From Aquirufa aurantiipilula (GTDB taxonomy: Bacteria; Bacteroidota; Bacteroidia; Cytophagales; Spirosomataceae): a DNA stretch of 64,000 nucleotides. The position numbers and the translations under genes were made by a program. The stretch's first letter is position 1. The number at the start of each line of letters is the position of its first letter. The stretch covers positions 62,001 to 126,000 of the forward strand of contig NZ_JAANOG010000005.1 of the NCBI RefSeq assembly GCF_019923745.1, written 5' to 3'. The notes under the pieces are model-generated. The model was given only the letters and a program-made list of their open reading frames with translations, did not search any database and was not told where the DNA came from. Positions 10,733 through 52,582 of the stretch are shown here, in pieces.

Positions 10733-10744
10733 CTAAAATTGAAG

Positions 10745-10817
10745 TGGTAGAGCCCGGACTCGAACCGGGGACACACGGATTTTCAGTCCGATGCTCTACC
10801 AACTGAGCTACTCCACC
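10745..10817 (-). tRNA. tRNA-Phe (anticodon GAA)
   Basis: The minus strand folds as a full cloverleaf of 73 bases. The acceptor GGTGGAG pairs with CTCTACC with one G-T pair at the fourth position. The D arm carries AGCTCAGTTGGTAGAGC, the anticodon loop reads CTGAAAA (GAA, Phe), and the T arm is CCCCGGTTCGAGTCCGGG. CCA is not encoded. The 3' end points toward the accessory island, as expected for an integration site in the tRNA 3' end. A promoter lies upstream and a terminator just downstream. Confidence 0.97.
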
Positions 10818-12961: not shown

Positions 12962-14371
12962 ATGCTTCTTTCTATATTACTCAGTACATTTATTGGTTTT
13001 TCTAGTCCATCCTTATCCAAAGACACACTCAGACACACTACCGTGGATGTCATGGCTGTTGGTTCTACCAATGGTATCAATCCTTTTTGGACCAGAAGTT
13101 TACAATATGGTACCGTTCCCGTAGAAAATTCAACTGGGATAATCCGTATAAAGAATGGCAAATGGTACAACCCCAAAAAAGATGTTGACTGGATGTACCA
13201 GGTTGAAGGAACTGGATGGCTGGGTAAAGAATCCAAATTTTTATTATCAGAAGCTTACCTTGGACTAAAAAAGGGGGCCTTTGAAATTTGGGGGGGATCA
13301 AAAAGAGAAGTTATTGGCTTAGGAGACACCACGATGACGGCTGGTTTTTTCATCTGGTCAGGCAATGCCCTTCCATTACCTAAAGTTCATGTAGGTACCC
13401 GAAATTATGTGAACGTACTTCATGATTGGGTGGGAATCAATTTCCAATTTGCCCATGGCTGGTTTGACAATCAAGGGTCAATAGGTGATTCTTATCTTCA
13501 TCAAAAATCTCTTTATTTTCGTTTAGGTCAACCTATTTCAAGTCTTAATCTTTTTGTGGGATTCAACCACCAAGCGCAGTGGGGAGGTAGTAGGCGAGAT
13601 CCTAAGGGAGGCTTTTATGATGTGTATCCATCAGATTTCAATGCCTTTACCAAAGTTCTTCTAGGCGCTGGGGAAGGAATACTTCCTGATGATGACGAGA
13701 ACAATAAATATGGTAATCATTTGGGAAGTTTGGATTTGGGCATACGATATCAAAACGACCAAATGTCAGTCCTACTTTACCGCCAAAACCCTTATGAATC
13801 AGATAGAATTTGGTCACTAAATACCATTAATGATGGATTAACCGGACTTTCATTCACCATGAAAGAACCCAATATCATTGAAGGTATAAGTTTAGAATAC
13901 CTATATACGGGAAACCAAGGTACATACCAGTCCATATTAGGGAGCTTATTGAATAAACAAGATCATGATTACCCCAATATGGTCAATTATCTAAATGTAC
14001 GTGGGCGAGATGGATGGATTTACTCGGGAAGAGGATTAGGTACGCCTTTAATTATTATGGACAAAGAAAGTCAACAAGGAGGCGGACTAAGTTTTGCTTA
14101 TAATGCAGTGAGGTCCATGTATGTTGGAATTCGGGGGACATTGCCTCAACAAATTCACTGGATGGCAAGGCTCTCATCCACTTCGTATGACTATCCCGTA
14201 ATCCCAGCCAATAATCCAGAAAGCTATTTAAAGCAAATTTCTGCCTCTTTGAATCTACAAAAGCAAGTCAATAAAAAACTGGGACTTAGTATTCAGATTG
14301 CTGTTGACCAAGGAGACCGAATCAAAAATACCCTAGGTGGCATGCTAGGAATGAAGTATCGATTCCAGTAG
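12962..14371 (+). CDS. Capsule assembly Wzi-family outer-membrane protein, copy 1
   Basis: A 469-residue protein with an N-terminal signal-like segment (MLLSILLSTFIGFSSPSLS). The body shows the Wzi pattern: INPFWTRSLQYGTVP, FIWSGNALPLPKVHVGTR, AHGWFDNQ, FVGFNHQAQWGG, NHLGSLDLGIRY and the closing KNTLGGMLGMKYRF. Wzi is an 18-strand outer-membrane barrel that anchors or organises capsule or exopolysaccharide. It is paralogous to the gene at 18320, with near-identical motifs. Its 3' end faces the SGNH-like gene six bases away. The pair of Wzi genes framing an acyl-modification operon suggests that the modified glycan is held at this surface. The Wzi assignment is confident; the exact ligand is unknown. 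Confidence 0.9.
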   Translation: MLLSILLSTFIGFSSPSLSKDTLRHTTVDVMAVGSTNGINPFWTRSLQYGTVPVENSTGIIRIKNGKWYNPKKDVDWMYQVEGTGWLGKESKFLLSEAYLGLKKGAFEIWGGSKREVIGLGDTTMTAGFFIWSGNALPLPKVHVGTRNYVNVLHDWVGINFQFAHGWFDNQGSIGDSYLHQKSLYFRLGQPISSLNLFVGFNHQAQWGGSRRDPKGGFYDVYPSDFNAFTKVLLGAGEGILPDDDENNKYGNHLGSLDLGIRYQNDQMSVLLYRQNPYESDRIWSLNTINDGLTGLSFTMKEPNIIEGISLEYLYTGNQGTYQSILGSLLNKQDHDYPNMVNYLNVRGRDGWIYSGRGLGTPLIIMDKESQQGGGLSFAYNAVRSMYVGIRGTLPQQIHWMARLSSTSYDYPVIPANNPESYLKQISASLNLQKQVNKKLGLSIQIAVDQGDRIKNTLGGMLGMKYRFQ

Positions 14372-14377: not shown

Positions 14378-15319
14378 TTACCAATTTTTTTCGTTGGCTT
14401 TGATGTATTTGACTAGTCCTTGGGAGTAAATCATTGCACCCTGACTGTTCATGTGATTTTTATTCTCCAAATACCTAGGATTAGCCATTTCCTGTAAAAA
14501 TTGCCCGGTATATTCCCACTTAGACTCTTTTGGTATTTTATTAAAAATGGGGATTTTAATTTCAAAATCATCTTTATTGTTGGAGGTAATTGGGAGTAAA
14601 AACACCACTTTAAATTCATTTTGCTGTTGCATTTTAAGGGCTTGATTTACTCGTGAATACGCATTCATATCTAATTTACTTAATGCAAAAACGTGCAAAT
14701 TTTCTTGGTTCAAAAAAGACTCCTTCGAAACTACATCATTCCTATTCGTCGGAGAATAGCCTATTTCATTATATCCATTATACTCATCTCTAAAAGCTAT
14801 TCTCTTTATTACATTTTGATTTTGAATCATGGTATTCCAAAATACTGCCTCAAAATCATCTAAAAAACCATAATTTTTGGATGAGGGTATTGGTTTGCCT
14901 AAAAATTTATAATATGAATTAGGAAAATCAGGTAGTTCCAAATATTCTAAAGCAGATTCAAATGATTCTGGATAATTAACTAAATAGGATGTCAATTCGA
15001 CAAAAACAACCTTGTTCCCTGGCAAATTCTTAATAAACTGAGCCAAATATAGATTCTGAGCCAAAGTATTTCCTAAAAGACCCATATTATACACTCGCCA
15101 GGTTGTAAGGGAATCTTGAATCAACTTTGAATTAACACTTCGCTGTATTCTACTAGATCCTAAAAAGAAAATTGATTTTGAATTCGAATCAATCTTAGCC
15201 ATTGATTGCCTTAATGTTGAGATATTTGATTTTCCCGAAAACCTACTAAAAAGTACACTAGCACTTGCAAATAGTAGCATTACGAATATCCAAAAAGTGA
15301 GCTTTAGTACAAGTCTCAT
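14378..15319 (-). CDS. SGNH-like membrane-anchored protein, MBOAT partner (DltD/AlgJ-like)
   Basis: A 313-residue protein with one N-terminal membrane segment (about 5-25), placing the domain outside the inner membrane. The SGNH block I serine is in FFLGSSRIQRS (GSS 54-56), and the C-terminal block is NHMNSQGA (His289). The residue three before that His is Asn286 rather than the usual Asp, so hydrolase activity may be altered. The partner MBOAT gene ends two bases upstream. DltD, PatB and AlgJ/AlgX proteins take part in the transfer of acyl groups after the membrane acyltransferase. It is the last gene of the ACP-P450-MBOAT-SGNH operon. Sequence similarity to DltD itself is weak, so that label is by fold and position only. 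Confidence 0.82.
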   Translation of the reverse strand: MRLVLKLTFWIFVMLLFASASVLFSRFSGKSNISTLRQSMAKIDSNSKSIFFLGSSRIQRSVNSKLIQDSLTTWRVYNMGLLGNTLAQNLYLAQFIKNLPGNKVVFVELTSYLVNYPESFESALEYLELPDFPNSYYKFLGKPIPSSKNYGFLDDFEAVFWNTMIQNQNVIKRIAFRDEYNGYNEIGYSPTNRNDVVSKESFLNQENLHVFALSKLDMNAYSRVNQALKMQQQNEFKVVFLLPITSNNKDDFEIKIPIFNKIPKESKWEYTGQFLQEMANPRYLENKNHMNSQGAMIYSQGLVKYIKANEKNW

Positions 15320-15320
15320 C

Positions 15321-16691
15321 TCAAAATGCTAAATAATAATTATTAAGACCTCCACTAAAATCCCCAAAAACGAATAGACTTACAACAAGCTGAGTATAAA
15401 TTAAACGCCTTTCCCATGGTGATACACTTTCTAGAAAAGAATCCATTCTCTCATCTTTAGACCAGAGATGGTATAAATCGACAATAAAGAACATCACAAA
15501 AAATATAAATATATTTCTCCGTTGAATAAACCATACTTCAATGGGGAAGTAAGTAGGCATTTTAATTTTGTTCCATAAATCCCCAAGAGTAGGATAAATA
15601 AAGACAAGCGCAATAAATGAACATCCTAAAATATGATATACTATACCCATACTTTGTTTCAATAACCCACCTTGCCTAAGTTTAGGCAATTGCCAAGCTT
15701 TTTCTAGTAGAATCCATGCCCCATTCAAAAATCCCCAAAATAGGTATTGCCAGCTAATTCCATGCCATAAACCAATAAGCATATACGTTAACAATAGAAG
15801 TAGATAAGGCTTAGTTCTCCAGAACTGAAACTTAATTTGCCAATAAAAAAAATAATCTCTGAACCATTCATTTAAGGTAATATGCCAACCTTTCCAAAAT
15901 TCATGTCGGTTAGAAGAAAAATAAACCCGCTTATGAAAATTATCTTTTAGTCTAATACCAAAGATTTCTGAAATCCCTTGAAAAAAATCAACAAATGAAC
16001 TGAAGCTAAAATATATGTAAAAGAAAAAGACCAAGCCAATTAACAAGGTCCACCAACCTGCTATTTCACTCCCTTTCAGTGAAATTAATAACTGGTTTAA
16101 TCGTTGTGCTAAAACAAAGTTTTTAAATATACCCCACAGGATCAACCTCATTCCATTTGTAAATGATGCTTCTGTGATTTTTGCTTGTTCAAACTGACTA
16201 TTCAAATAACTAAACCGATGTAAAGGACCAGCATGCAATGTGGGGAAATACAGCAAATAGAGCATTAATTTGAAGAAAGAATCTGTCGGCTTAATGAACT
16301 TTTTTTTAATGTCCATCAAATAACTTATGGCATTGAAAACAAAAAAACTTAAACCCACAATTTGCCAAATGCCCGTTTCCTCCCAAATTTCCACATCCAA
16401 TAAAATGAAGTGATCAATCCAAGATTCTTTTAGTTTATATACGATCAAAAATCCTATGAGAATACCGTTACCTAATCCTGTCAAAGGAAATGATGATTGA
16501 ATTTTATTTCCTATTTGATAGGTAATAGCGGTACCCAATAACAAAAAAACCAAAGTAAACGGCATGAAAATACCAAGTGTGAAAATAGAACTAATTAATA
16601 AGGATTTCCATACTTGAATTCTAAAAATGAATATGGAACTAAAAGCGATTAGCAAAAAAAGAACACTAGAAAAAAGTCCAATTTGCGCCAT
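15321..16691 (-). CDS. MBOAT-family membrane O-acyltransferase (DltB/AlgI-like)
   Basis: A 456-residue polytopic protein with about ten or more membrane segments. MBOAT hallmarks are WKGWHITLNEWFRDY (His270) and the catalytic IGLWHGISW (His310). AlgI, DltB and PatA move an acyl group from a carrier across the inner membrane to an exported polymer. In DltB the donor is a carrier protein, and here an ACP gene lies in the same operon. The spacing to the P450 gene upstream and the SGNH gene downstream is one base each, which indicates tight co-expression. The acceptor is presumably an exported glycan, given the flanking Wzi genes. It differs clearly from the second MBOAT in the window (44204-45655). 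Confidence 0.93.
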   Translation of the reverse strand: MAQIGLFSSVLFLLIAFSSIFIFRIQVWKSLLISSIFTLGIFMPFTLVFLLLGTAITYQIGNKIQSSFPLTGLGNGILIGFLIVYKLKESWIDHFILLDVEIWEETGIWQIVGLSFFVFNAISYLMDIKKKFIKPTDSFFKLMLYLLYFPTLHAGPLHRFSYLNSQFEQAKITEASFTNGMRLILWGIFKNFVLAQRLNQLLISLKGSEIAGWWTLLIGLVFFFYIYFSFSSFVDFFQGISEIFGIRLKDNFHKRVYFSSNRHEFWKGWHITLNEWFRDYFFYWQIKFQFWRTKPYLLLLLTYMLIGLWHGISWQYLFWGFLNGAWILLEKAWQLPKLRQGGLLKQSMGIVYHILGCSFIALVFIYPTLGDLWNKIKMPTYFPIEVWFIQRRNIFIFFVMFFIVDLYHLWSKDERMDSFLESVSPWERRLIYTQLVVSLFVFGDFSGGLNNYYLAF

Positions 16692-16692
16692 A

Positions 16693-17886
16693 TTATCTCA
16701 ATGTAATCTTGGCACTTTTTAAAGTCCTCATAAATATTTGATTCCCCCATTCTAAAGGTTGTGTTGAATCAATGTCAAATTTTTGAAGGAACTTTACCAT
16801 AGGTTTAAGGCCAAATTCTATTTCTTTTCTGGCAATCAATGCACCTAAACAAAGGTGCGTTCCTGCTCCAAATGCAAGATGTGGATTAACCTGCCTATTG
16901 GGATTAATTTCATCAGGAGAGTCAAATATTTCCTCATCACGATTGGCACTAGCTATTCCCAAAATAAATCGAGTTCCTGCCAAAAAATGCTGGCCAAAAA
17001 TAGTCTCATCATTTTTATTAATTCTGACAGTAAATTGCAAAGGAGAAACGTAACGTATACACTCTTCCGTTAATAACTTAATTTCTTTTTGATTAGCCTG
17101 AATAACAAATTCTTTTAAGTTTGGATTTGATAATATAGTATAAAGAGTGATGGTTAAATTATCTTTGGAAGTTTCAAAAAATGCCATTAATGTCACTGCC
17201 AAAAGAGAGTAATAATCATCCTCATCAAATTCCAATCCATCTAATTCTCTGATTAATTTGGACTTAAAATTTGACTCTGCAAAAAGCCCTTTCCCTTCGA
17301 TAAAACATTCATTTATTTTGAGATACATTTGTTTTGAAACAAATATATCTTGACTTTTTGCCGCAAGATTAGAAAATTCAACTACTTTCTCTAGACTTGC
17401 AAAGTCCTTTAATCCAATAAAATGACATAAAATATGGTAGATGAAGTATTTAGAAAAATCGACTATATCTAATTCCTTAACATCTTCAAAATGGCGTATA
17501 CAATCCTTTACCGCTTCTTGAATTAACCTGTCATAATCATAGCTAAATAACACCTTGCCCAAAGCAATTCTCAATTTTCTATGAATTTCTCCATTCAAAT
17601 ACATCAGCCATTTACTAGTAGTTTTGGCTAAGAAAGGGCATTGTGGACTATTCTTAAAAATATAATTTTCTTTACTCTCGAAATAAACTGCTAATGTACT
17701 CACCTCAAAATTCGGTGATTCTAAAATAGTCGCAACATCACGATATTTAAACAAAAAAATATTCCCAAAACTGTCTTTTTGGATAGGGTTATGCTGGCGA
17801 CAAAGCTCATAAATAGGATAGGGGTCATTAAAATAATCAGGAGCAAAAGGGTTCCATTTTATTGTTGATTTTCCATCCATACACAA
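16693..17886 (-). CDS. Cytochrome P450
   Basis: A 397-residue bacterial class P450. The heme-binding loop is LAFGAGTHLCLG with Cys346; ExxR is E275-x-x-R278 in EECIRYVSP; the C-helix heme contact is GEIHRKLR (His102, Arg105). The I-helix reads MAFFETSKDN, keeping the acid-alcohol pair Glu238-Thr239 but with Phe in place of the usual Gly. There is no membrane anchor, so it is cytosolic. Its 5' end overlaps the ACP gene by 28 bases (22 if Met3 is used), which suggests coupled translation and perhaps a substrate carried on that ACP, as in P450s that oxidise acyl- or aminoacyl-carrier proteins. No ferredoxin or reductase gene is nearby. Confidence 0.96.
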   Translation of the reverse strand: MCMDGKSTIKWNPFAPDYFNDPYPIYELCRQHNPIQKDSFGNIFLFKYRDVATILESPNFEVSTLAVYFESKENYIFKNSPQCPFLAKTTSKWLMYLNGEIHRKLRIALGKVLFSYDYDRLIQEAVKDCIRHFEDVKELDIVDFSKYFIYHILCHFIGLKDFASLEKVVEFSNLAAKSQDIFVSKQMYLKINECFIEGKGLFAESNFKSKLIRELDGLEFDEDDYYSLLAVTLMAFFETSKDNLTITLYTILSNPNLKEFVIQANQKEIKLLTEECIRYVSPLQFTVRINKNDETIFGQHFLAGTRFILGIASANRDEEIFDSPDEINPNRQVNPHLAFGAGTHLCLGALIARKEIEFGLKPMVKFLQKFDIDSTQPLEWGNQIFMRTLKSAKITLR

Positions 17887-18089
17887 AGCTTGTTTATCGT
17901 ATTGTACTCCGAAAATAAGGAAGGATCGACATTTTCCAATTGAAATTTACTTTCCATTTCAAAAGAAAGTGAAACTATCGACAATGAATCTAAATTAAAA
18001 TGCTCAAATGCTGCATCACAATCAACCTCCTTCTCCGAAATAGATGCCTCTGAGGCAATTTGCTGGATTAACCAATGCTTAAAATTCAT
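17859..18089 (-). CDS. Acyl carrier protein
   Basis: A 76-residue carrier protein. The phosphopantetheine site is FNLDSLSIVSLSFEME with Ser35, followed by the usual acidic helix II. The opening helices (MNFKHWLIQQIASEASISE) and length fit a discrete ACP or PCP. A holo-enzyme would need a phosphopantetheinyl transferase, which is not in the window. It is the first gene of a four-gene operon and overlaps the P450 gene. In the Dlt system a similar small carrier (DltC) hands its aminoacyl group to the MBOAT protein. No acyl-CoA or amino acid ligase (DltA-like) is seen here, so the acyl source must be fatty-acid synthesis or an enzyme encoded elsewhere. Confidence 0.93.
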   Translation of the reverse strand: MNFKHWLIQQIASEASISEKEVDCDAAFEHFNLDSLSIVSLSFEMESKFQLENVDPSLFSEYNTINKLCVWMENQQ

Positions 18090-18319: not shown

Positions 18320-19792
18320 ATGTTCCAATCAAGAAATAACATATTTAATTACATTGGCATTTTATTTACTATTGGGATTCAGGTTGTAATACATTTCAAT
18401 GTAAAAAGTCAACAAGATACTTCTTTCCATGCAAGGATTGAAGCACAAGTATATGCCTCCGATACGGGTATTACTCCTTTCTGGATGCGCAGTTTACAAT
18501 ACGGTCAAGTACCCCTAGAAAACCCAGGAGCTGTTGTGCGAGCTTGGGCAGGGAAAAATTATCAATGGAAGAAAAAATACGACTGGAAATATGAGTTGGA
18601 AGCAACTGGCTGGGGAGGTAAACAGAATGATTTTTGGTTTACCCAAGCCTATGTCAGTGGAAGACGAGGCAAATGGGAGCTATGGGCAGGTAGAAGAAAA
18701 GAAATATACGGATTAGGCGATTCTAGCCTAACAGGAGGATTTTATGCTTGGTCAGGCAATGCTGTTCCAATACCAAAAGTTCAAATCGGAACTAGAGACT
18801 ATATAAACTTAGCTAAAGGGTGGCTAGGAGTACACATGACATTTTCTCATGGCTGGATGGATAATCAGGGTCCAACATTAAATGGATTTTTACATCAGAA
18901 GAGCCTTTATGGTCGATTTGGAAAACCAGAAAGCTTTATCAACGTATTTGCTGGATTAAACCACCAAGTAATGTGGGGAGGAGAAGCCAAGGTAAAAACA
19001 GGTGGAGATTATGATTACTATCCCAGTAGTTTGAATACCTATTTTTATGTGGTTACAGTACTCAAAGATCGCGAGATTGTGCCAACAGATACCATTAGTA
19101 GGTACGATGATTTGGGTAACCAATTTGGTAACCATCTAGGCTCCTTTGATTTGGCTGTTAAATTTCAACCCAAAGGTTGGGAAGTTTTAGTATATAAACA
19201 ATCTGCCTATGAAACAGGTAGAGGATTTGCTTTGACCCAAATTAATGATGGATTAACAGGAATTTCCATCAAAAATAAATCAAGTAGATTCATTGATAAG
19301 ATTACTTTAGAATATTTATACACGGCCAACCAAGGCAATTATATTTCAGGATTAGCTGAATTCTTAAAAATCAAAGATCCACATCAAATAGAAATTGAAT
19401 CCTATTTTTACAATGGCCGGGGTGGATGGCAATATTGGGGAAAGGGAATTGGGACGCCATTGATTATCATTGACCGTGAAAGTCAACAGGGCGGAGGATA
19501 TAATTTTACCCTAAATGCCGTAAAATCATTTTACCTTGGGCTTTCAGGAAGTATAACAAAAACGCTAAGTTGGCAATCCCGAATTTCAAGCTCATATTAT
19601 GCTAGTCCTAGAAATCACTTGTTACCAAGATTATCAGAAAGTGACTTCATATCCCAGTTTTCAGGTATGATTTCCTTCCAAAAAACACTGAATGAAAAAT
19701 GCAGTTTAAACCTTCAATTTGGATACGATGAAGGTCGTAGAGTGAAGAACACACTCGGAGGAAGCTTAGGCATCAAATATAGCTTATTCTAA
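18320..19792 (+). CDS. Capsule assembly Wzi-family outer-membrane protein, copy 2
   Basis: A 490-residue paralogue of the gene at 12962. The N-terminal hydrophobic segment FNYIGILFTIGIQVVIHF serves as the export signal. Matching motifs are ITPFWMRSLQYGQVP, YAWSGNAVPIPKVQIGTR, SHGWMDNQGP, VFAGLNHQVMWGG and the closing KNTLGGSLGIKY. It is expected to form an outer-membrane barrel that binds capsular or exopolysaccharide. The gene is divergent from the ACP-P450-MBOAT-SGNH operon and convergent with the polysaccharide locus (one base between stops). Two Wzi copies may serve two glycans, or one may recognise the modified form. Confidence 0.92.
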   Translation: MFQSRNNIFNYIGILFTIGIQVVIHFNVKSQQDTSFHARIEAQVYASDTGITPFWMRSLQYGQVPLENPGAVVRAWAGKNYQWKKKYDWKYELEATGWGGKQNDFWFTQAYVSGRRGKWELWAGRRKEIYGLGDSSLTGGFYAWSGNAVPIPKVQIGTRDYINLAKGWLGVHMTFSHGWMDNQGPTLNGFLHQKSLYGRFGKPESFINVFAGLNHQVMWGGEAKVKTGGDYDYYPSSLNTYFYVVTVLKDREIVPTDTISRYDDLGNQFGNHLGSFDLAVKFQPKGWEVLVYKQSAYETGRGFALTQINDGLTGISIKNKSSRFIDKITLEYLYTANQGNYISGLAEFLKIKDPHQIEIESYFYNGRGGWQYWGKGIGTPLIIIDRESQQGGGYNFTLNAVKSFYLGLSGSITKTLSWQSRISSSYYASPRNHLLPRLSESDFISQFSGMISFQKTLNEKCSLNLQFGYDEGRRVKNTLGGSLGIKYSLF

Positions 19793-28150: not shown

Positions 28151-29290
28151 TTATCTTTTCCCTGCTTTTTCTATCCCCAACATTTTAAACAATTTGGCAC
28201 CGATTTTATAAATGCTTTCTTGCGATTTATAATCCTTATAAGTCTTATTAGGTGCATCGAAATAACCTTGCAATTCCTCTGTTGGGATCCCCAATTTATT
28301 CGCTATATATTCAAAATCATGCTGAATCACAGATGGGTCAAAAGGACTACATTTCAGTTTTTCGAGAGCTTCATCGCGTTTCATTTGCCCAGTCACAATC
28401 AAACTAGAATATTGAACCCTTCGAACATCATAACCAAACTTCTTTGGCAACCAATAGCTCTCATAGAATTTCGTAAATCTAGACTCAAAATGCTTTTGAG
28501 GATATGGTTGCCAACCAAACTTATCTTGCAATAATTGCATGGCTTCCGTTTTAATGTAGGGCACATAATTCAGTGGCTTAATGACTTTAATTCCTCTTAA
28601 ATAAGGTAGAAATAATTTATGCCAAAGGATACTCGTCAACGGATACTTTTTCAAAGGCTTTCTACCAAATTTTTGATGGATATCATTCAACTGAATTACA
28701 TCCGATTGATAATACATCCATTCAATCGGGTTGCGGATGCACTCCGTAGAGAAATTAGCTCCTGTCAATATATATTTCACCTTATACTTGGATGCAAAAT
28801 TGTACATCGTGGCAAAAAAAGCATGGTCTTGTGGGGTATCAATATGAGGAACTCCAGCCTTAAAGTAGGATAACTGGAGATCTTTCATTTCTTCCCAATC
28901 AATCACTTCTGTATACAAATCCAGCTTGAGATGATCTACAATACGTTCGATATTATTCACAGCAATTTGTGAATTCCAGCCTGCATCCACGTGAAATACT
29001 AAAGGTCTTAATCCTAGTACCTCTTTAGCTACATAAACTAAATAAGAACTATCAATACCTCCGCTCATTCCTATGATACAATCAAAGTCTTTCCCTTCTC
29101 CCTCTTTTTTAATTTTTTCAACCACTTTTTGTAGCTCTTTCATCCCCTTTTCTCCAGTATCCCAATGAGGTAAAGTGTGGGTATAATAAGTGTTACAGTG
29201 ATCGCAAACTCCTTTTTCATCAAATACGATTTGGGAGTCAGAAGTATCCATGACACAATTCGTACAAATCTGATAATTAGTATTACTCAT
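28151..29290 (-). CDS. N-acetyl sugar amidotransferase, WbpG/PseA-like (trio 1)
   Basis: A 379-residue PP-loop ATPase from the Met at 29290. An upstream ATG at 29320 would overlap asnB by 20 bases and add ten residues before the usual start. Cysteines CTNC and CDHC suggest a zinc knuckle. The PP-loop is IIGMSGGIDSSYLVY. It adenylates the sugar acetamido oxygen and uses ammonia from the HisH/HisF pair to form an acetamidino group. Targets in related loci are diacetamido-uronic acids or nonulosonic acids. HisH-like and HisF-like genes follow within three bases each. A second version of the trio is at 52592-55121. Confidence 0.9.
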   Translation of the reverse strand: MSNTNYQICTNCVMDTSDSQIVFDEKGVCDHCNTYYTHTLPHWDTGEKGMKELQKVVEKIKKEGEGKDFDCIIGMSGGIDSSYLVYVAKEVLGLRPLVFHVDAGWNSQIAVNNIERIVDHLKLDLYTEVIDWEEMKDLQLSYFKAGVPHIDTPQDHAFFATMYNFASKYKVKYILTGANFSTECIRNPIEWMYYQSDVIQLNDIHQKFGRKPLKKYPLTSILWHKLFLPYLRGIKVIKPLNYVPYIKTEAMQLLQDKFGWQPYPQKHFESRFTKFYESYWLPKKFGYDVRRVQYSSLIVTGQMKRDEALEKLKCSPFDPSVIQHDFEYIANKLGIPTEELQGYFDAPNKTYKDYKSQESIYKIGAKLFKMLGIEKAGKR

Positions 29291-29300
29291 AAAATGAAGT

Positions 29301-31187
29301 TTATATGCCTTTCTTGTCAAGCCATATTTGCTGACAAAGCATCGAAAACAATAAATAAGAATGATCTTCTTTCCCCGAAAATTGTTCGTTCAACAATTGT
29401 TGTACCTGCTGTGGACGAAAAATCCCCTGAATTTCTAATCTCTGTTGATCAAAATAATGATTAATGATAGCGTTTCTCTTGGAAAACCATGATCGAATGG
29501 GAAGGGCAAATCCTGCTTTTTCTCGATAAATCACCTCTTTAGGTAAATAAGGCTCCATCGCTTTCTTTAAAATATACTTCTGTTGTCCATTTTTCAACAT
29601 GAGATTCCTCGGAACCGAGTTCATCAATTGTACCATTTCAAAATCCAAAAATGGCACTCGAACTTCTAACCCCACCGCCATGCTCATTTTATCTGTGTAA
29701 GATAAATTCAATGCAAGCAAATCAAATTGTTGATCTGCTTGTAACATGGTTGAGAAGGTATCTACATGAGCATGTTGATCTAAAAATTCCACTAAATCCT
29801 GTCCAGGTTTTTCCACTTGCTGTTCCACAAACAAGGACTTAATCTGTTCTCCTCCACCCCACATAAAATAGCTGGCTATGCGTTCATGGGAGGGTTGCCC
29901 AGCTGCTTTTGCCAATTTTTTAAATCTCCTGTAAATGGTGCTAAATTTTCCAGATATTGTGGATGGCAATACGCTTCCTATGGTGGCTAATGTCTTCTTT
30001 GTCAAAGTTGACATATCTAAAATCATTTTTTCTGCCTGATAGCGACGATAGCCCGCCAAATATTCATCTGCTCCTTGTCCACTTAGCATGACTTTCACTC
30101 CGTCTTTTCGAGCACTTTGGCAAATTAAAAATGTATTAATGGCTGCTGGATCAGAAATGCCATCTTCCATGAAATCAATGAGCGTTGGGAGCAAACTTAA
30201 AAACTCTGATTCCGCTTGAATGATATGCAATTTTAAACCTAATTTCTTGGCCATTAAGGATGCATAATACAAATCTGAGCTTTGTCCATCTAAAGAATTA
30301 TCTTCCTTAGAAAATGAAATCGTATAAGCTGATTGAATATTTGCTTTTGCCTGAACTGCTTCAAAAGCAATGGAAGATGAATCTAATCCACCACTCAAAA
30401 AAAGTGAAATGGGAACATCGGCTATCAGTTGCCTTCTAACGGCTTTTTCTAAGGTTGCATGCAATTGCTCAGTCAAGACTTCCTCTGAGCATTGACTGAT
30501 TGGCGATTGTAAATGATTAAAAAGTGGTTTGGAATCAACTAATTTACCTTCCGAATATCGATGATATATCCCTGGCTGCACTTTCATAAACTCCTCATAC
30601 ATGGTATAGGGTTCAGGAACATACATAAAGGCCAGCTGTTCTACCAAAGATTGCTTTCTGACGGTTCTTTTTAAATTTTTAAAAGCTAGTAAGCCTTTCA
30701 CTTCAGAAGAAAAAAACACGGAGTCCCCTTGGTCAGAAAAATACAAGGGTTTAATCCCTATGGGATCACGCAAAACGTGTAATTCTTTTGCTTCTTGATC
30801 ATAAATCGCTAAAGCAAATATCCCGTTCAACTGGGATAAAAAGGCATATCCCTCTCGAGCAAATCCCTCCAAAATCACCTCGGTGTCAGAACTTGACTTC
30901 CAAGCTATGGGTCCGTAGGTTGATTCTAAATAGGATTTAAGTTCTAGAAAATTATAGACTTCGCCATTATAAGTCATCACATATCTCCCTGACGAATCTT
31001 GCATGGGCTGATGACCTGCCGCACTTAAATCAATGATGGATAATCGAACCTGACCTAAATGAGCATCTCCCTCTCTGGAATGAAATATACCATCATCATC
31101 TGGCCCTCGATGGTGAATGGCTTGGATGGCTGCATTGATATCAAACTGTCCATTTTGGGAAGAGCTAATTGCTATAATTCCACACAT
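29301..31187 (-). CDS. asnB: Asparagine synthetase (glutamine-hydrolysing), surface-glycan type
   Basis: A 628-residue class II amidotransferase. Cys2 of MCGIIAISS is the glutaminase nucleophile; residues to about 210 form that domain (ERGD-like segments RHRGPDDDG-type IHHRGPDDDG and MTYNGEVYNF). The synthetase domain carries the PP-loop LFLSGGLDSSSIAFEA. Proteins of this family in O-antigen loci amidate uronic acids to uronamides (WbpS-like) rather than make free asparagine. The position between a glycosyltransferase and an amidotransferase trio supports that role. The start directly follows the glycosyltransferase stop. True asparagine synthesis cannot be excluded from motifs alone. Confidence 0.93.
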   Translation of the reverse strand: MCGIIAISSSQNGQFDINAAIQAIHHRGPDDDGIFHSREGDAHLGQVRLSIIDLSAAGHQPMQDSSGRYVMTYNGEVYNFLELKSYLESTYGPIAWKSSSDTEVILEGFAREGYAFLSQLNGIFALAIYDQEAKELHVLRDPIGIKPLYFSDQGDSVFFSSEVKGLLAFKNLKRTVRKQSLVEQLAFMYVPEPYTMYEEFMKVQPGIYHRYSEGKLVDSKPLFNHLQSPISQCSEEVLTEQLHATLEKAVRRQLIADVPISLFLSGGLDSSSIAFEAVQAKANIQSAYTISFSKEDNSLDGQSSDLYYASLMAKKLGLKLHIIQAESEFLSLLPTLIDFMEDGISDPAAINTFLICQSARKDGVKVMLSGQGADEYLAGYRRYQAEKMILDMSTLTKKTLATIGSVLPSTISGKFSTIYRRFKKLAKAAGQPSHERIASYFMWGGGEQIKSLFVEQQVEKPGQDLVEFLDQHAHVDTFSTMLQADQQFDLLALNLSYTDKMSMAVGLEVRVPFLDFEMVQLMNSVPRNLMLKNGQQKYILKKAMEPYLPKEVIYREKAGFALPIRSWFSKRNAIINHYFDQQRLEIQGIFRPQQVQQLLNEQFSGKEDHSYLLFSMLCQQIWLDKKGI

Positions 31188-43154: not shown

Positions 43155-44204
43155 TTACTTATTCTTATTTTTACTCTCTATAATCTTTTTTAAAGCATCC
43201 TCTTTACAATGCATCCCATCATAAAAATATGAATTATCCATTCCTAATTTATTTGGATTAAAAGTGCCGAGTACCAAAATTTTATGCAATTTGGCGAATT
43301 CATTAACTTTAACTTCTGTACTTAATACCAAAGGATATTTACTTTCAATAACTTCATAAACAAGAGGAGGAAATGGAGAAAATATAAATTCAATTTCAAC
43401 ATGATTCTTTTCTAATTCCTTTATCAATTTATTGAATGTTATCCAACTTCTCTTAGAAAAAACTTTAAAATTCTCAATACTGTATAAATCCTTAGATATA
43501 TATTCATGTATTCTATTGTCAATTTCTTTAACACTTGACTGTCTAAACAATTGATCATAAACTAAAGCTCCATCTGTTAATTTAGTGGCCGAAATATTGT
43601 GCGAGTTAGAGGTAGGAGTTGGATCTAAATCACCCTTTAAAAATTTGGGCATGAGCTTCAATGAGCTTTGAAAATACGAGAATGAAAATAGCTCTTTGTA
43701 TTTCATTAATTCATACCCTTCCTGAGACTCCAATTGAATAAATCTATTATAATATGTAGCAATCGACTTCCACCGATTTTGATCACTTAAATCATTGAAT
43801 GTCCAAGGATCAATACCAATAATTATTTTTTTGGGTACCTTTTTATACTCTTTGTAAATTTGATAAATACTAACAATATCCTCCATACTTGCCCCACTCA
43901 CTGAATTATTAAAAAACGTTGTTCCGGGAAAATGACTTGAATTGAAAAGCATGGTTCTGCTAGAGCCAATGATAATTGTTTTAGGACTAATTGATTTCAG
44001 CTTAATTAATTCCAATTGACATAATCTTTCATCATAATTTCCAAAATTCGTTACATATTTTCCAGACCCAATAATCTTAGCCATTTTTTGTTCATAATCA
44101 TTGGCAAATAATCTGGCAGCATCTCCGAAATAATTGACAAAAACTAGAATTCCCAAAAATGGAGTGACGAAAAAAATGGTTTTTAAAATAAAGGTCTTCA
44201 TCAT
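43155..44204 (-). CDS. SGNH-like membrane-anchored partner of the second MBOAT
   Basis: A 349-residue protein with an N-terminal membrane segment (about 5-24). The SGNH residues are present: GSS at 80-82 in TIIIGSSRTMLFN, and FYDGMHCKEDA with Asp329-x-x-His332. Unlike the SGNH protein at 14378 the Asp is kept. It directly overlaps the MBOAT stop by one base. By analogy with AlgJ/AlgX or DltD it completes acyl (often acetyl) transfer to the polymer in the periplasm. The N-terminal Met is doubled (Met2 is equally possible). Confidence 0.83.
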   Translation of the reverse strand: MMKTFILKTIFFVTPFLGILVFVNYFGDAARLFANDYEQKMAKIIGSGKYVTNFGNYDERLCQLELIKLKSISPKTIIIGSSRTMLFNSSHFPGTTFFNNSVSGASMEDIVSIYQIYKEYKKVPKKIIIGIDPWTFNDLSDQNRWKSIATYYNRFIQLESQEGYELMKYKELFSFSYFQSSLKLMPKFLKGDLDPTPTSNSHNISATKLTDGALVYDQLFRQSSVKEIDNRIHEYISKDLYSIENFKVFSKRSWITFNKLIKELEKNHVEIEFIFSPFPPLVYEVIESKYPLVLSTEVKVNEFAKLHKILVLGTFNPNKLGMDNSYFYDGMHCKEDALKKIIESKNKNK

Positions 44205-45655
44205 TAAAACTGGAAATAAATGAATTGACTTTCATTATAATTCCCGAAACAAAGAATCATGAATAATAGCACATAATAAAAAATATACCGAATTGGTCTT
44301 TTCCAGGTAATACCTATATGCGAAATGGCATATTGCCCTTCTCTTCCTATCCATTCTATCAGAATAAAAAGGAAAATTATAGGAACGATTACTACTGCTT
44401 TGCTAATTCCTCGAAAATAAGGGATACTCACAAGAGAACTGGAAAATATCTCAGAAATAAAACTAAACGCATGACTCACGTCATTAGCCCGAAAGAAAAT
44501 CCATGCAAAAACAGTCAAACTAAATGTAATTCCTATGGATAATAATTCGCTCAAACTTGGAAAATTTCTTCCGCTAGCAACTATGTCAAGGTTATTTCTA
44601 TTCGTATTAAAAATGATTGAAGGCATGATAAATAAAGCATTGAGAAGTCCCCATACTATAAAAGTCCAATTAGCTCCATGCCATAAACCACTTACTAAAA
44701 AAATCACAAAGGTATTTCGAATTTTGACAAGCATTCCCGATTTACTTCCTCCTAATGGGAAATAGAGGTAATCCTTAAACCAAGATGATAAGGAAATATG
44801 CCACCGCCTCCAAAATTCTGCAATATCTCTTGAAAAATATGGGAATGCAAAGTTTCTTAAAAGCTCTATTCCAAATAAACGGGCAGTTCCAAGTGCAATA
44901 TCTGAATAACCTGAAAAATCACAATAAATCTGAAATGTAAAAAATAAAGCCCCTAAGACTAAAGTACTTCCAGCATATTCTGTAGAATTATTAAAAATAA
45001 CGTTGGCATATTCCGCACAATTGTCTGCTATGACTATCTTTTTAAATAAACCCCACAATATTTGTTTCAAACCATCAACCGCTTTTAAATAATTAAACTC
45101 GCGTTTTTTAATGATTTGAGGTAATAGGTGTGTCGCTCTTTCAATGGGTCCCGCAACCAATAACGGGAAAAAACTAACAAATAAAGAATAATCAATAAAA
45201 TGACGTTCTGGCTTTATCTTACTTTTATAAATATCAATCACATAAGATAAACCGTGAAAAGTATAAAATGAAATTCCAACAGGTAATATGATATTTAAGG
45301 TTTCTACATGGACATTCAAACCTATCTGGGCTAATGAATTGACAAATGAAGAAGCGAAGAAATTATAATATTTGAAAACGCCAAGAAACCCCAAATTAAC
45401 GATGATACTTAACCAAAGCCAAAAAAGCTTCATTTTTTGCGCTTCTGACTGGTATATCATTATACCAGTATAGTAATCAAGCAAAGTAGAAAAAATCAAT
45501 AAAAACAGAAATTTCCAATCCCAACATGCATAAAAAAAATAACTTGAAACTAAAAGTAAGATATTTTGAAGCTTCAAATTGCCTCTAGTTCCGAACCAAT
45601 AAAATAGAAAAACTATTGGTAAAAATATAGCAAAACTATATGAGTTAAATTGCAT
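44204..45655 (-). CDS. MBOAT-family membrane O-acyltransferase (AlgI-like), second copy
   Basis: A 483-residue protein from the Met at 45655 (MQFNSYSFAIFLPIV, the usual AlgI opening); the ATG at 45685 would overlap the upstream gene. The hallmarks are FWRRWHISLSSWFKDY and VSGLWHGANW with the catalytic His, plus GPIERATHLLPQI and the DFSGYSDIALGTARL segment of AlgI. There are about eleven to twelve membrane segments. It belongs to the acetylating AlgI/PatA branch more clearly than the MBOAT at 15321. With the SGNH partner downstream it likely O-acetylates the polysaccharide made by this locus. Confidence 0.95.
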   Translation of the reverse strand: MQFNSYSFAIFLPIVFLFYWFGTRGNLKLQNILLLVSSYFFYACWDWKFLFLLIFSTLLDYYTGIMIYQSEAQKMKLFWLWLSIIVNLGFLGVFKYYNFFASSFVNSLAQIGLNVHVETLNIILPVGISFYTFHGLSYVIDIYKSKIKPERHFIDYSLFVSFFPLLVAGPIERATHLLPQIIKKREFNYLKAVDGLKQILWGLFKKIVIADNCAEYANVIFNNSTEYAGSTLVLGALFFTFQIYCDFSGYSDIALGTARLFGIELLRNFAFPYFSRDIAEFWRRWHISLSSWFKDYLYFPLGGSKSGMLVKIRNTFVIFLVSGLWHGANWTFIVWGLLNALFIMPSIIFNTNRNNLDIVASGRNFPSLSELLSIGITFSLTVFAWIFFRANDVSHAFSFISEIFSSSLVSIPYFRGISKAVVIVPIIFLFILIEWIGREGQYAISHIGITWKRPIRYIFYYVLLFMILCFGNYNESQFIYFQF

Positions 45656-45656
45656 A

Positions 45657-46922
45657 CTATAATTCAAATACTCCTTTAGTATCAATATGCATTATATCTT
45701 CTAAAATAGTTTGGACGTTCGGACGTTGGGACAATGTTGACGTTAAACAAGCCATTTTATAATAATGATAATGCTGTTCATTAACTTTTAAAAATTGATT
45801 AAAACTATCGGGATATTGGTTAATATTTATAGGATTCGTTCCCAATAAATGAGCCATTCCATAAATATCATGCATAGCTAAGTCATCACCTTGGAGTTCA
45901 TCAGAATAAATAAATAAAACTGGTTTATTAAACATAACAGCATAAGAAGTTGCGGCACTAGATCTTGTAATTACATATTCACAATTTTTCACAAGGTCTG
46001 ATGTTTTATGATAATAAACTTCTCGATTCCCAAAACAAGGTGCAATAAAAGGGTGTTTTGCTTTATAATGTCCAGCAATCTTTATTTTAACACCTGTATC
46101 TAATTCCAATTTATCAAAAAATGCCGTTAATGTTGGATACCAAACTTCCGTGGTTAAAAATACTTTTCTTTTAAGTATTGTATAATCACTAGTAAACATG
46201 GGACCTGGTGCATCCAATAAAACGGCATATTTAACTTCAGATAGATTTCCCATTTGTGAAATATTCCTCTTAAGCAATGAATTGGAGTAGTCTTGACAGT
46301 GTAAAAAAACTTTTTGAGCCGTCTTATTCACCGTTTTATCTGAAATTGCTTCTTCTAAATAATGTTCTCCTGCTATCAAAAGGTGCGTAGCTGTACTAGG
46401 CAATAACCTAGCAAAATTAGAAAAAAATAGGGAAGATATTCTTCTTTTGATTTCCTGAAAAGATGTACTAGTTTTTAATAACCTTTTGATCCTTGAAAAA
46501 TAACCTTTTTCAATTAACGAACTTTCGTTTCCAATATTAAAATGTGTGGGTATTCCTCCAAAATAGGCCTTCAAAATGGACAATGAAGGTTTTTTCAAAT
46601 ATACATAAATTAAAAAATTACATATTAAATCTTTAAAAGATTGATTCGGTATAGCATTATAAATACAAATTTTAGCATTTCCAATTTGAGAATTTAACCT
46701 TCTTAGCTTAATAATAAATTCAGAAAAATTTTTTATTTGACAAATTTCATTTGATTCAAATCTTTCAGCCGAATATGAATTTGAAAATTTAGCCGTTAAT
46801 AGTGGAGAAAGATCCCAAACCTCAACTTTAGAGAATTTCTTAAAGACATCTAATTCCAAATAATTATAAATATGCTCAGTAAATTTATATGGATATAATA
46901 CTATGTAAATCGACTTATTCAA
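45657..46922 (-). CDS. Surface-carbohydrate glycosyltransferase-like protein
   Basis: A 421-residue protein without a close family that I can name. The C-terminal third is GT-B-like: KIAGHYKAKHPFIAPCFGNRE, then YVITRSSAATSYAVMFNKPVLF, which resembles the polyphosphate or CDP-glycerol transferase pattern of surface-carbohydrate proteins. There is no signal peptide. It is followed at one base by the MBOAT gene and preceded by a sulfotransferase gene. It may transfer a sugar or a glycerol-type group. Low certainty on the function. Confidence 0.65.
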   Translation of the reverse strand: MNKSIYIVLYPYKFTEHIYNYLELDVFKKFSKVEVWDLSPLLTAKFSNSYSAERFESNEICQIKNFSEFIIKLRRLNSQIGNAKICIYNAIPNQSFKDLICNFLIYVYLKKPSLSILKAYFGGIPTHFNIGNESSLIEKGYFSRIKRLLKTSTSFQEIKRRISSLFFSNFARLLPSTATHLLIAGEHYLEEAISDKTVNKTAQKVFLHCQDYSNSLLKRNISQMGNLSEVKYAVLLDAPGPMFTSDYTILKRKVFLTTEVWYPTLTAFFDKLELDTGVKIKIAGHYKAKHPFIAPCFGNREVYYHKTSDLVKNCEYVITRSSAATSYAVMFNKPVLFIYSDELQGDDLAMHDIYGMAHLLGTNPININQYPDSFNQFLKVNEQHYHYYKMACLTSTLSQRPNVQTILEDIMHIDTKGVFEL

Positions 46923-46951: not shown

Positions 46952-47926
46952 TTACTTTTTGAATCCATATATTTGATTTTCATATCTATCAGAAATCGCT
47001 AATAATTTAACGTATAATTCCTCTGAAATCCCATTTTTAAACTCCTTCATTTTTTTCATCCTTAAAGAAATATCTAACACTCGCGGACATCTGGCATTAG
47101 TTAGTGCATTTCCTAAAGCAAATCCTGGCTCAGTTCCCAAAAATTGACATATTTTATCCATTTCAATTTGAGTATCTTGAACAAAATCTTCAAAGACTAC
47201 ATTGTGTATTTTTGAAGGATATTTCGCTTTATTATATTGATTAATAGTACATTCAATTAAATTTAGAACTGTAAATACGCAGCGCTCCATTGGGTTTAAC
47301 TTAAGCCAAGTTTTTTCAACACCATTACAGTACCATGGTAGGTTTTTACTTTCAAAATCAATTGAAAGTGTAAATGATCGAGGATCATTCAAGAATCGTT
47401 CTCCCCATCCTCTTATAAACCAAGAATGAATCATATCAACTGGATGCCTTAAAACATGAATCATTTTATAGTCAATTTCTAATAAGTCTAGAAATTCCAA
47501 ATTTACCATCATATCATGCGTCATGAATGGGAATAATCGATTTCTTTTCCTCAACTCATCAATTATACTATCTCCCTCTTCTGCTGACAGTCTTTTAAAA
47601 TATTGTTCCGCATTGGGATGTTTTAGTACACTTGTTTGATCTCCAGGTCTAAAGTTCGCATTTCTTGAAAGTAATTGATTGTAAGCTAATTCGTTCATAA
47701 TAGTCCGAACACTTGATTTCGCATATTCAGGACTAATCATTTGAAAAGAAAGAGCTGGGACAATATGTTCTAACAAAACAAAAAATTGTAATTGCTCTGT
47801 GTTTTTTAAAGTAGGCAGAATATTTGAAAACAATGATTTTCCACACCTAGTAATCCCATCTACGAATACAACATTATTTGAAACATTTTCTTGTAATGCA
47901 AAAATAGGTGATTTTGATATATTCAT
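46952..47926 (-). CDS. PAPS-dependent sulfotransferase
   Basis: A 324-residue sulfotransferase. The 5'-phosphosulfate loop is VFVDGITRCGKSLF (24-31), and the 3'-phosphate site is in IHVLRHPVDMIHSWF with the Arg...Ser pair. The C-terminal part has MDKICQFLGTEPGF, as in bacterial carbohydrate sulfotransferases. It would sulfate a sugar of the glycan using PAPS. The genes for making PAPS (Sat, CysC) and for removing PAP (CysQ) are in the same run, which strongly supports the call. Confidence 0.9.
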   Translation of the reverse strand: MNISKSPIFALQENVSNNVVFVDGITRCGKSLFSNILPTLKNTEQLQFFVLLEHIVPALSFQMISPEYAKSSVRTIMNELAYNQLLSRNANFRPGDQTSVLKHPNAEQYFKRLSAEEGDSIIDELRKRNRLFPFMTHDMMVNLEFLDLLEIDYKMIHVLRHPVDMIHSWFIRGWGERFLNDPRSFTLSIDFESKNLPWYCNGVEKTWLKLNPMERCVFTVLNLIECTINQYNKAKYPSKIHNVVFEDFVQDTQIEMDKICQFLGTEPGFALGNALTNARCPRVLDISLRMKKMKEFKNGISEELYVKLLAISDRYENQIYGFKK

Positions 47927-47929
47927 TTT

Positions 47930-48739: not shown

Positions 48740-48743
48740 TATT

Positions 48744-49478: not shown

Positions 49479-49524
49479 GCTTATTTTTTGAGTTAAAGAA
49501 AAAATGAGTCTACTAAAGTATCTT

Positions 49525-50958: not shown

Positions 50959-50987
50959 TATAATATTATTTAAAAGAATTTTTAAAA

Positions 50988-52067: not shown

Positions 52068-52075
52068 CTATTCTT

Positions 52076-52582
52076 TTATTTATTGAAAGCTTTTCTATAA
52101 AGAATTTCTGCCATTTCATTTGGAGATAATCCCTCTGAAATATCAAATATTAGCTCTGGGTTAATAGGTTCATTCCATGGAATATCTACACCTACAACGT
52201 CTACTATTTTATTTTCTAAGGCTTGTTTATATAAGCCTTTAATTTCTCTAACTTGTAATTGATCTATGTTACCTTTTAAATACACTTCAAAGTACTCTTT
52301 AAATTCTTTTCTATTATTTTCTAATAATTGCTCATTTGAATAAAGTGCGGCTACTAGAACAATTATTGATTGTTTTTCTAAAAATGCAGCTAAATTATGC
52401 ATCCTTTTAATTTGAATTTCACGATCTGTTTCTTTGTAACCTAGATCATTACCATATAATTGACGAATTACATCCCCATCTAGTAAAACCATATTAGGAA
52501 TACTATTTTTATATTTTTTTTCAAATTCTTGACTCAAAGTCGTTTTTCCTGAAGCGGAAAGGCCTGTTATCCAAATAACCAT
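52076..52582 (-). CDS. cysC: Adenylylsulfate kinase CysC
   Basis: A 168-residue kinase. The P-loop is WITGLSASGKTTLS (7-14), and the segment LLDGDVIRQLYGNDLGYKETDRE holds the APS-binding Arg/Asp residues. Later parts such as IVDVVGVDIPWNEPINPEL match APS kinase. It phosphorylates APS to PAPS, the donor for the sulfotransferase at 46952. It is somewhat shorter than typical (about 190-200), but the key motifs are intact. It is separated from sat by eight bases. Confidence 0.94.
   Translation of the reverse strand: MVIWITGLSASGKTTLSQEFEKKYKNSIPNMVLLDGDVIRQLYGNDLGYKETDREIQIKRMHNLAAFLEKQSIIVLVAALYSNEQLLENNRKEFKEYFEVYLKGNIDQLQVREIKGLYKQALENKIVDVVGVDIPWNEPINPELIFDISEGLSPNEMAEILYRKAFNK

Follow-up and report, generated by a model that had tools for sequence, protein, structure and literature searches.

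Within the window, as we call the whole 64,000-nucleotide stretch of the Aquirufa aurantiipilula genome analysed here, four minus-strand genes follow one another with little or no spacing, in the order carrier protein (ACP), cytochrome P450, MBOAT acyltransferase and SGNH-like protein (Table 1). The ACP and P450 genes overlap by 22 bp, and gaps of 1 bp separate P450 from MBOAT and MBOAT from the SGNH-like gene, which confirms the layout, coordinates and junctions given in a preliminary description of this DNA. For the P450 we use the ATG at 17880; the ORF list begins it at 17886, with a TTG that precedes this ATG by two codons. The ACP, P450 and MBOAT proteins all exceed their Pfam cut-offs (27 bits for MBOAT). 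It is from the overlaps and 1-bp gaps only that we infer transcription of the four genes as an operon, because a promoter scan gave 12 matches against a mean of 19.2 in shuffled sequences, fewer than in the shuffles. The G+C content of the unit is 32-33%, compared with 35-41% in the measured neighbours; it was set aside as a sign of transfer, since the window's other MBOAT-SGNH pair is lower still, at 29-31%.

Table 1. The four-gene unit (14378-18089) and the genes on either side of it, in positions of the window
Feature	Position	Strand	Remarks
Carrier protein (ACP)	17859..18089	-	76 aa; phosphopantetheine site Ser35; Pfam PF00550 34.5 bits
Cytochrome P450	16693..17880	-	395 aa from ATG; Pfam PF00067 53.8 bits
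MBOAT acyltransferase	15321..16691	-	456 aa; catalytic His310, C-terminal shuttle Tyr453 (NYYLAF); Pfam PF03062 44.3 bits
Membrane-anchored SGNH-like protein	14378..15319	-	313 aa; Ser56, His289, Asn286; from alignment and predicted fold
Wzi-like protein, left flank, outside the unit	12962..14371	+	Pfam PF14052 61.7 bits
Wzi-like protein, right flank, outside the unit	18320..19792	+	Pfam PF14052 48.3 bits

The key residues named in the preliminary description are all in place. The carrier serine (..LDS35L..) is invariant in the 16 sequences aligned. The heme and ExxR motifs of the P450 are intact (A235-F-F-E238-T239, E275-C-I-R278 and FGAGTHLC346LG), and the heme ligand Cys346, together with Glu275/Arg278 and Ala235/Glu238/Thr239, is invariant in 18 of 18. 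Both histidines of the MBOAT, His270 and His310, are present in the window protein; His310 and Tyr453 are invariant in all 17 aligned members of the unit, and His270 is replaced by Asn in eight of them.

A P450 search of 222 genomes of the family returned 35 places at E <= 6e-32, and 32 of these, the window's included, were examined. Although P450 identity falls to about 25% across them, ACP adjoins the P450 in 32/32 and MBOAT in 29/32, and an SGNH gene is present in 18 of the 20 wide loci. Three of the 32 consist of a fatty acyl-AMP ligase (FAAL), ACP and P450 without MBOAT; L023, L025 and L027, which lack MBOAT, were left out of the set of 29. In G015, a genome of the same genus, the two wzi genes adjoin directly and all four genes of the unit are absent, leaving an empty site. 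Because this arrangement persists across relatives and all four genes come and go together, it is not due to chance: the four genes are one module, and co-conservation, put forward earlier as a check, was found. Named relatives that carry it, among the best 80 of 592 candidates, are Mucilaginibacter, a Chitinophagaceae MAG and Dyadobacter. In a phylum-wide sample of 395 genomes, no P450 other than the window's scored above 260 bits; the next two (G432 and G347) adjoin a ferredoxin-like ORF, with no ACP or MBOAT. A single-protein query of viral contigs, which reaches close relatives only, found none.

The genes that accompany the unit elsewhere bear on how its carrier is loaded. Among the 30 best P450 loci, 19 have a FAAL-type ligase gene as a neighbour. 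This gene is present in 22/24 Dyadobacter carriers of the unit (14 linked, 8 unlinked) and in 1/16 tested Dyadobacter without it (Fisher p 5e-8, for genomes that are related and not independent); in Dyadobacter G064 the ligase is present and the unit absent. Together with the window, the two Dyadobacter carriers that lack the ligase fall in a branch without it, type B: no such ligase was found in the genomes of the ten type-B loci, these three included. The window's unit has no ligase as a neighbour, and no match in the genus scored above 72 bits. In a P450 tree the ten type-B loci group together, as do 19 Dyadobacter loci of type A (support 1.0 in each case). Type A overall is not one clade; L015 falls with the g21 loci that have no MBOAT, and the pairing of P450 with MBOAT may therefore have arisen more than once.

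The preliminary description had placed the P450 in the position of the ligase. That idea is not supported, since ligase and P450 coexist in one branch; moreover, P450s are not known to charge carriers. The co-occurrence of the FAAL-type ligase with the unit in Dyadobacter points to a fatty acyl group as the probable cargo. Since this ligase is of the fatty acyl-AMP type and not DltA-like, the carrier is unlikely to bear an aminoacyl group.

The same observations bear on the Dlt system (DltA-DltC-DltB-DltX-DltD), which D-alanylates teichoic acids and which the locus resembles in its carrier-MBOAT-SGNH gene logic and in an MBOAT fold nearest to DltB. Membership in that system fails. The DltA model NF003417 exceeded its cut-off in 0/38 genomes of the genus (the best, G000, scored 137 bits against 476), the unit MBOAT reached 120.9 bits with the DltB model TIGR04091 against 375, and the carrier scored 18.3 against 68 with NF003464 and 14.9 against 52.35 with TIGR01688, both DltC models. 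The locus also differs from Dlt in its added P450, in the FAAL type of the ligase found in some relatives, and in a shuttle Tyr that lies inside the MBOAT rather than in DltX, for which, as a separate peptide, the junctions leave no room within the unit. In the formation of some peptide antibiotics P450s hydroxylate amino acids tethered to a carrier, and a system of DltC-DltB-DltD logic could in principle place such a hydroxy-aminoacyl ester on a glycan; the type of the co-occurring ligase and the DltA and DltC scores make this very unlikely. What survives of the Dlt-like transfer proposed earlier is that the MBOAT and SGNH genes are laid out like membrane-crossing acyl-transfer pairs.

In this respect the unit resembles the O-acetylation pairs of the PatA/PatB and AlgI/AlgJ type, with which it shares an MBOAT bearing a C-terminal shuttle Tyr motif and an adjacent membrane-anchored SGNH protein. 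The Y..F end is found in 29/29 unit MBOATs. A full FXYXXF end occurs in 18/29, plus the FYYFQF of L044, which supplies the full MBOAT end of L015, cut off by the edge of its locus; the window's NYYLAF keeps the Tyr and last Phe but not the first. The unit differs from these pairs in encoding a carrier and in having no GG loop. This loop is missing from all 29 unit MBOATs but present in 33/33 others (the three others of this genome and 30 loci from among the best-scoring places in 121 genomes, a set that leans towards typical family members), and the unit MBOATs form a separate clade (support 1.0). DltB is reported to dock DltC at the GG-loop segment (PMC11035591). The missing loop and the separate clade, in a unit that encodes its own carrier, lead us to infer that the unit MBOAT takes acyl-ACP as its donor. 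We dropped the DltB-like score as proof of this, since an ordinary MBOAT of the window (44204-45685) scores about as high as that of the unit (85.9 against 91.6 bits by phmmer; 151 against 121 with the DltB model); the GG-loop and shuttle-Tyr comparisons were used in its place. For the predicted fold, DltB is the closest solved structure among the matches listed, which include no PatA or AlgI structure.

Because the GG loop is missing while the C-terminal shuttle Tyr, absent from DltB, is retained, these comparisons suggest a third configuration of MBOAT/SGNH acylation. A 2025 PatA/PatB paper presents pairs of the PatA/PatB and AlgI/AlgJ type as working with acyl-CoA and no carrier protein, and states that MBOAT/SGNH pathways other than Dlt lack one (PMC12148441). 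The groups moved by described pathways, in the accounts we draw on, are simple: either an acetyl group supplied by acetyl-CoA or a D-alanine that arrives on a carrier. The combination of carrier, P450, MBOAT and SGNH protein was found nowhere in the literature searched, which excluded preprints and most subscription papers, in agreement with the preliminary description, whose author knew of no such system.

In a sequence comparison with the PDB, the P450 matches BioI best (its chain in 3ejb, E 2.2e-27). This nearest solved P450 reportedly works on a fatty acyl chain carried by an ACP, cleaving long acyl-ACP to pimeloyl-ACP (PMC7645780). The unit P450 is distant from BioI in sequence and is encoded together with its own ACP and a pair of export proteins. 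It is best read as acting on a carrier-bound acyl group; of the acyl and aminoacyl substrates proposed earlier, this keeps the first, the second being disfavoured by the FAAL-type ligase. The P450 might, as a variant of the model favoured below, cut a long acyl chain on the ACP as BioI does, so that a short dicarboxylic half-ester would be exported and confer negative surface charge. This would suit type-B units, which have no ligase beside them, but low overall similarity does not fix the reaction and hydroxylation is equally possible; we consider cleavage distinctly unlikely.

Relatives of the P450 in cyanobacteria point in another direction. In two loci, judged by eye, a related P450 has a FAAL-ACP fusion on one side and a PKS-like gene on the other, and the one plasmid record with a related P450, from Nostoc, has only AMP-binding, P450 and NRPS/PKS genes, the P450 beside the others. 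In such FAAL-ACP-oxidase starter modules ligase, ACP and P450 adjoin one another. The unit might likewise prepare an oxidised acyl group as in lipopeptide or polyketide starters, with MBOAT and SGNH protein releasing it or transferring it to a lipid or a diffusible small molecule, and not to a surface polymer. Consistent with this, the g21 loci L047 and L048 have FAAL, ACP and P450 but no MBOAT, an ABC-transporter-like gene lies beyond their ligase, and most Dyadobacter loci lie outside recognisable glycan clusters among the ORFs listed. However, the window's unit differs from a starter module in having no ligase beside it and an MBOAT-SGNH pair after its P450, and neither there nor among the bacteroidete ORFs listed did inspection by eye reveal a PKS or NRPS gene. 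The shuttle Tyr of the MBOAT and its membrane-anchored SGNH neighbour are, moreover, the layout of envelope-polymer acylation. Overall, a small-molecule product seems to us rather unlikely.

We consider it slightly more likely than not that the P450 oxidises a fatty acyl group on the unit's own carrier and that this group is then passed across the cytoplasmic membrane to an acceptor on the outside. A phosphopantetheinyl transferase would first arm Ser35 of the ACP. The genome contains a candidate, although such matches are not diagnostic because they occur once per genome in 35/38 genomes of the genus, with or without the unit. In Dyadobacter-type relatives the FAAL, which co-occurs so strongly, would load a fatty acid on the ACP; the window's branch would use another route, perhaps directly from fatty acid synthesis. 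The P450 would then oxidise the chain while it is ACP-bound, and the acyl-ACP would dock at the cytosolic side of the MBOAT, where His310 would transfer the acyl group to the MBOAT's own Tyr453, a step suggested by residue conservation and by the PatA/Dlt mechanism as outlined in the same PatA/PatB paper (PMC12148441). Finally, Tyr453 would pass the group to Ser56 of the SGNH-like protein, which would esterify an external acceptor.

The fuller proposal, to which we give slightly less than an even chance, is a third architecture of transmembrane acylation. In it an MBOAT with its own shuttle Tyr would receive the fatty acyl group, already oxidised by the P450, from a dedicated carrier, and the rapidly diverging SGNH protein would attach it to surface polymers, so that the bacterial surface would bear esters of hydroxylated or cleaved fatty acyl chains. 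Here a carrier comes together with an MBOAT that has its own shuttle, and an oxidising enzyme is present as well, so the acyl group could be modified before it is exported. If true, this would broaden the chemistry of bacterial surface modification and link acyl tailoring of the secondary-metabolite type with envelope modification. With only four genes and a natural empty site, the unit would also be a compact system for studying the docking of a carrier on an MBOAT.

The preliminary description took the Wzi genes on both sides as support for a surface-glycan acceptor. Both flanks are indeed Wzi-like (Pfam cut-off 30.1), but they are local to the genus: the pair stands without the unit in G015, the right gene is missing in the carrier G004, and tblastn (E 1e-3) found no Wzi-like sequence in 19 loci of other genera. 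In other genera, inspection by eye also revealed no polysaccharide cluster next to the unit, except at L043, with a glycosyltransferase-like ORF about 4 kb away, and L044, with a ManC-like ORF beside the ligase. Position points weakly to a surface polysaccharide of the adjoining cluster as, perhaps, the acceptor in this genus.

The acceptor side varies between relatives within the genus. Identity to the window in G012, G003, G004 and G022 is 89, 88, 80 and 75% for ACP and 79, 75, 73 and 73% for P450, compared with 82, 77, 61 and 60% for MBOAT and 74, 53, 37 and 39% for the SGNH-like protein. The last gave no Pfam match above cut-off and no NCBIfam match. Its predicted model is of moderate confidence (mean pLDDT 68.6, with residues 25-42 and 114-195 below 50). 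TesA-type SGNH enzymes head its PDB matches, at E 1.5e-4 but with a query TM of only about 0.4, and DltD comes at rank 12 (E 1.8e-3). Together with the conserved residues, among which Ser56 and His289 are kept, this fold supports the earlier naming of the fourth protein as SGNH-like.

The Asp of the DxxH motif, found in 15/18 aligned members, is Asn286 in the window, as in G012 and G003; the G022 protein bears the Asp. Because of this replacement, the last transfer step may be impaired or altered in the window. That the unit is degenerate or co-opted in this genome, with final transfer dead, nevertheless seems extremely unlikely: all four reading frames are open in the five carriers within the genus, ACP and P450 are well conserved, and Glu285 adjoins the changed site.

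The four minus-strand genes of the preliminary description (ACP, P450, MBOAT and an SGNH-like gene, together called the unit) are present as described there, joined by one 22-bp overlap and two 1-bp gaps in a source genome of 3.08 Mb and 70 contigs. We used the P450 as query against 222 genomes of the window's family, Spirosomataceae, which in this search includes Dyadobacter. It had a match of any kind in 71 genomes, and 35 places reached E <= 6e-32. Profiles were examined in 32 of these, the window's own included: an ACP adjoined the P450 in all 32 and an MBOAT was present in 29, the three exceptions (L023, L025 and L027) all belonging to one genus, g21. In one g21 genome (L015/L044) the P450 has a unit-type MBOAT next to it and clusters with g21 P450s from places that lack an MBOAT. 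An SGNH-like gene was found in 18 of 20 wide loci chosen from the 35, so the four genes are co-conserved in relatives. Among the best 80 of 592 named candidate loci, six had ACP-P450-MBOAT-SGNH (Mucilaginibacter sp. Bleaf8, a Chitinophagaceae MAG, and Dyadobacter diqingensis, alkalitolerans, fermentans and sp. 50-39), and the remaining 74 gave no MBOAT or SGNH match.

Features of the unit and of its surroundings in the window
Feature	Position	Strand	Basis or remark
tRNA-Phe gene	10744-10817	minus	about 3.5 kb from end of unit
SGNH-like gene	14378-15319	minus	conserved residues and AlphaFold model
MBOAT	15321-16691	minus	passes Pfam cut-off
P450	16693-17880	minus	passes Pfam cut-off
ACP	17859-18089	minus	passes Pfam cut-off
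WbuX-type N-acetyl sugar amidotransferase	28151-29320		over cut-off
Second MBOAT and neighbouring SGNH-like gene	43155-45685		SGNH-like gene by eye
Sulfation-type genes	46952-52582		
Probable sulfotransferase (presumed)	46952-47926		no NCBIfam match
Pyruvate kinase, among sulfation genes	49525-50958		407 bits, over cut-off
WbuX-type N-acetyl sugar amidotransferase	53976-55121		over cut-off
NeuC-like and NeuB-like genes (nonulosonic acid)	60122-62304		both over cut-off

Five genomes of the window's genus carry the unit. In another, G015, two wzi genes lie 108 bp apart with none of the four unit genes between them. The flanks are those of the window: lptB-like and cystathionine-synthase-like genes on one side, and epimerase, glycosyltransferase and heparinase-like genes on the other (named by inspection and from their likeness to genes of the window). 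This empty site, together with the conserved gene set, implies that the four genes are acquired or lost as one block. The unit is real and conserved.

The unit had been read as a Dlt-like transfer system with the P450 in the ligase's place. A ligase lies directly upstream of the ACP in 9 of the 20 wide loci. It scores 352-418 bits against NCBIfam's two general fatty acyl-AMP ligase (FAAL) models, below the cut-offs of both (775 and 600). The closest chains of solved structure carry the labels polyketide synthase (594 bits) and saframycin synthetase B (507 bits), both of which we take to be FAAL-type domains; the FAALs FadD23 and FadD32 come next. Among 24 Dyadobacter carriers with a P450 at E <= 6e-32, the ligase is linked to the unit in 14 and lies elsewhere in the genome in eight, each time with an adjoining ACP, which is a second ACP in the five whose P450 locus was examined; it was not found in G057 and G092. 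Of 16 tested Dyadobacter genomes in which the P450 search gave no strong match, only one (G064) has it. The comparison of 22/24 with 1/16 gives a Fisher p of 5e-8, or 1e-9 without the two Dyadobacter genomes of the ligase-free branch, although neither is a clean probability, the genomes being related. That branch is a single P450 clade (support 1.0, 10 loci) comprising the five window-genus genomes, G057, G092, G102, Mucilaginibacter and Chitinophagaceae. No FAAL-type ligase was found in the window's genus (best match 72 bits), nor in G057, G092 and G102 at E <= 1e-30, or in the Mucilaginibacter and Chitinophagaceae genomes at 1e-10 and 49.5 bits. Because the ligase co-occurs with the unit and the ligase-free members form one clade, we reject the P450 as a stand-in for the ligase.

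A 491-aa AMP-binding protein (G000:C50:192038-193486) has counterparts across the window's genus, in carriers and non-carriers of the unit alike. In the two inspected (L251 and L254) of the eight unlinked Dyadobacter loci (L248-L251 and L253-L256), ligase and ACP lie beside a symporter-like gene that elsewhere flanks the complete operon; the arrangement looks like a remnant from which the P450-MBOAT-SGNH part has moved away. In G055 (L022) the hits of the ligase profile are spread over two frames that overlap, so this split gene may be broken.

A fold search with the unit MBOAT model (pLDDT 74.6) returned DltB first (E 1.4e-10); the DltB score does not discriminate the unit MBOATs and was discarded for that use. 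A GG loop follows the W-x-R-D-Y segment in 33/33 other MBOATs (LGG[SN] in 29, otherwise FGGN, LGGT, MGGN or LGGR) and in 0/29 unit MBOATs; in the alignment, DltB likewise has no GG at that point. The helix just after this position holds DltB residues Met302, Val305, Ile306, Met309 and Lys312, which are described as contacting DltC (PMC11035591). In the tree a single branch (length 0.86, support 1.0) separates the unit MBOATs from the others. All 29 unit MBOATs have a Y..F end; that of L015, incomplete at the locus edge, was read from L044 (FYYFQF). According to PMC12148441, the acyl group is accepted by the Tyr of an FXYXXF motif at the C-terminal end of PatA-type MBOATs; DltB is described as lacking this motif and relying on DltX, and MBOAT/SGNH pathways other than Dlt as lacking a Dlt-like carrier protein. 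The unit thus seems to combine a carrier, as in Dlt, with a shuttle Tyr in the MBOAT itself, as in PatA and unlike DltB. All 17 aligned unit MBOATs keep His310, and eight of them have Asn at the His270 position. The window's second MBOAT, in the same cluster without carrier or P450, has the usual GG loop and ends in FIYFQF; it served as internal comparison.

The best solved relative of the P450 by sequence is BioI (3ejb), which is reported to cut long acyl-ACP to pimeloyl-ACP (PMC7645780). In cyanobacterial loci L058 and L060, a related P450 is flanked by a FAAL-ACP fusion on one side and a PKS-like gene (by eye) on the other, and on a Nostoc plasmid another (27.9% identity) accompanies annotated AMP-binding and NRPS/PKS genes. 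This relatedness, these neighbours and the adjoining ACP point to acyl-ACP as the substrate; the reaction would be hydroxylation or chain cleavage.

The SGNH-like protein has no Pfam or NCBIfam match above cut-off, and its assignment comes from conserved residues (Gly54, Ser56, Arg57, Asn78, Gly80 and His289) and from the PDB matches of an AlphaFold model of moderate confidence (pLDDT 68.6 on average and under 50 at residues 25-42 and 114-195), the best of which are TesA-type SGNH enzymes (E 1.5e-4, query TM ~0.4), with DltD at rank 12. It diverges far faster than the donor side: in G012, G003, G004 and G022, identity to the window is 74, 53, 37 and 39% for SGNH, compared with 79, 75, 73 and 73% for P450 and 89, 88, 80 and 75% for ACP. 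Such divergence would fit an acceptor that varies from strain to strain in the manner of surface glycans; relaxed constraint is another explanation. The DxxH Asp (residue 286), kept in 15 of 18 aligned members, is Asn in the window, G012 and G003 but not in the other two carriers of the genus, which counts against function of the protein. Overall, the unit is a new form of putative MBOAT/SGNH acylation, and we slightly favor a scheme in which the P450 would oxidize a fatty acyl group on the ACP, the MBOAT Tyr would shuttle it, and the SGNH-like protein would esterify an external acceptor.

The flanking wzi genes, previously cited in support of a surface-glycan acceptor, are a weak argument for it: in G015 they occur although the unit does not, carrier G004 lacks one of them, and none turned up in the 19 loci of other genera that were searched. 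A glycan acceptor is therefore plausible by position only. Glycan-gene hints in other genera, by eye, were confined to a glycosyltransferase-like ORF ~4 kb off in L043 and a ManC-like ORF beside the ligase in L044.

To the right of the unit the window holds a long polysaccharide-type cluster. Among its sulfation-type genes, sulfate adenylyltransferase and adenylylsulfate kinase score over cut-off, and a CysQ-like phosphatase below it (201.5 vs 228.8). The genes adjoining each WbuX-type amidotransferase are presumably hisH and hisF.
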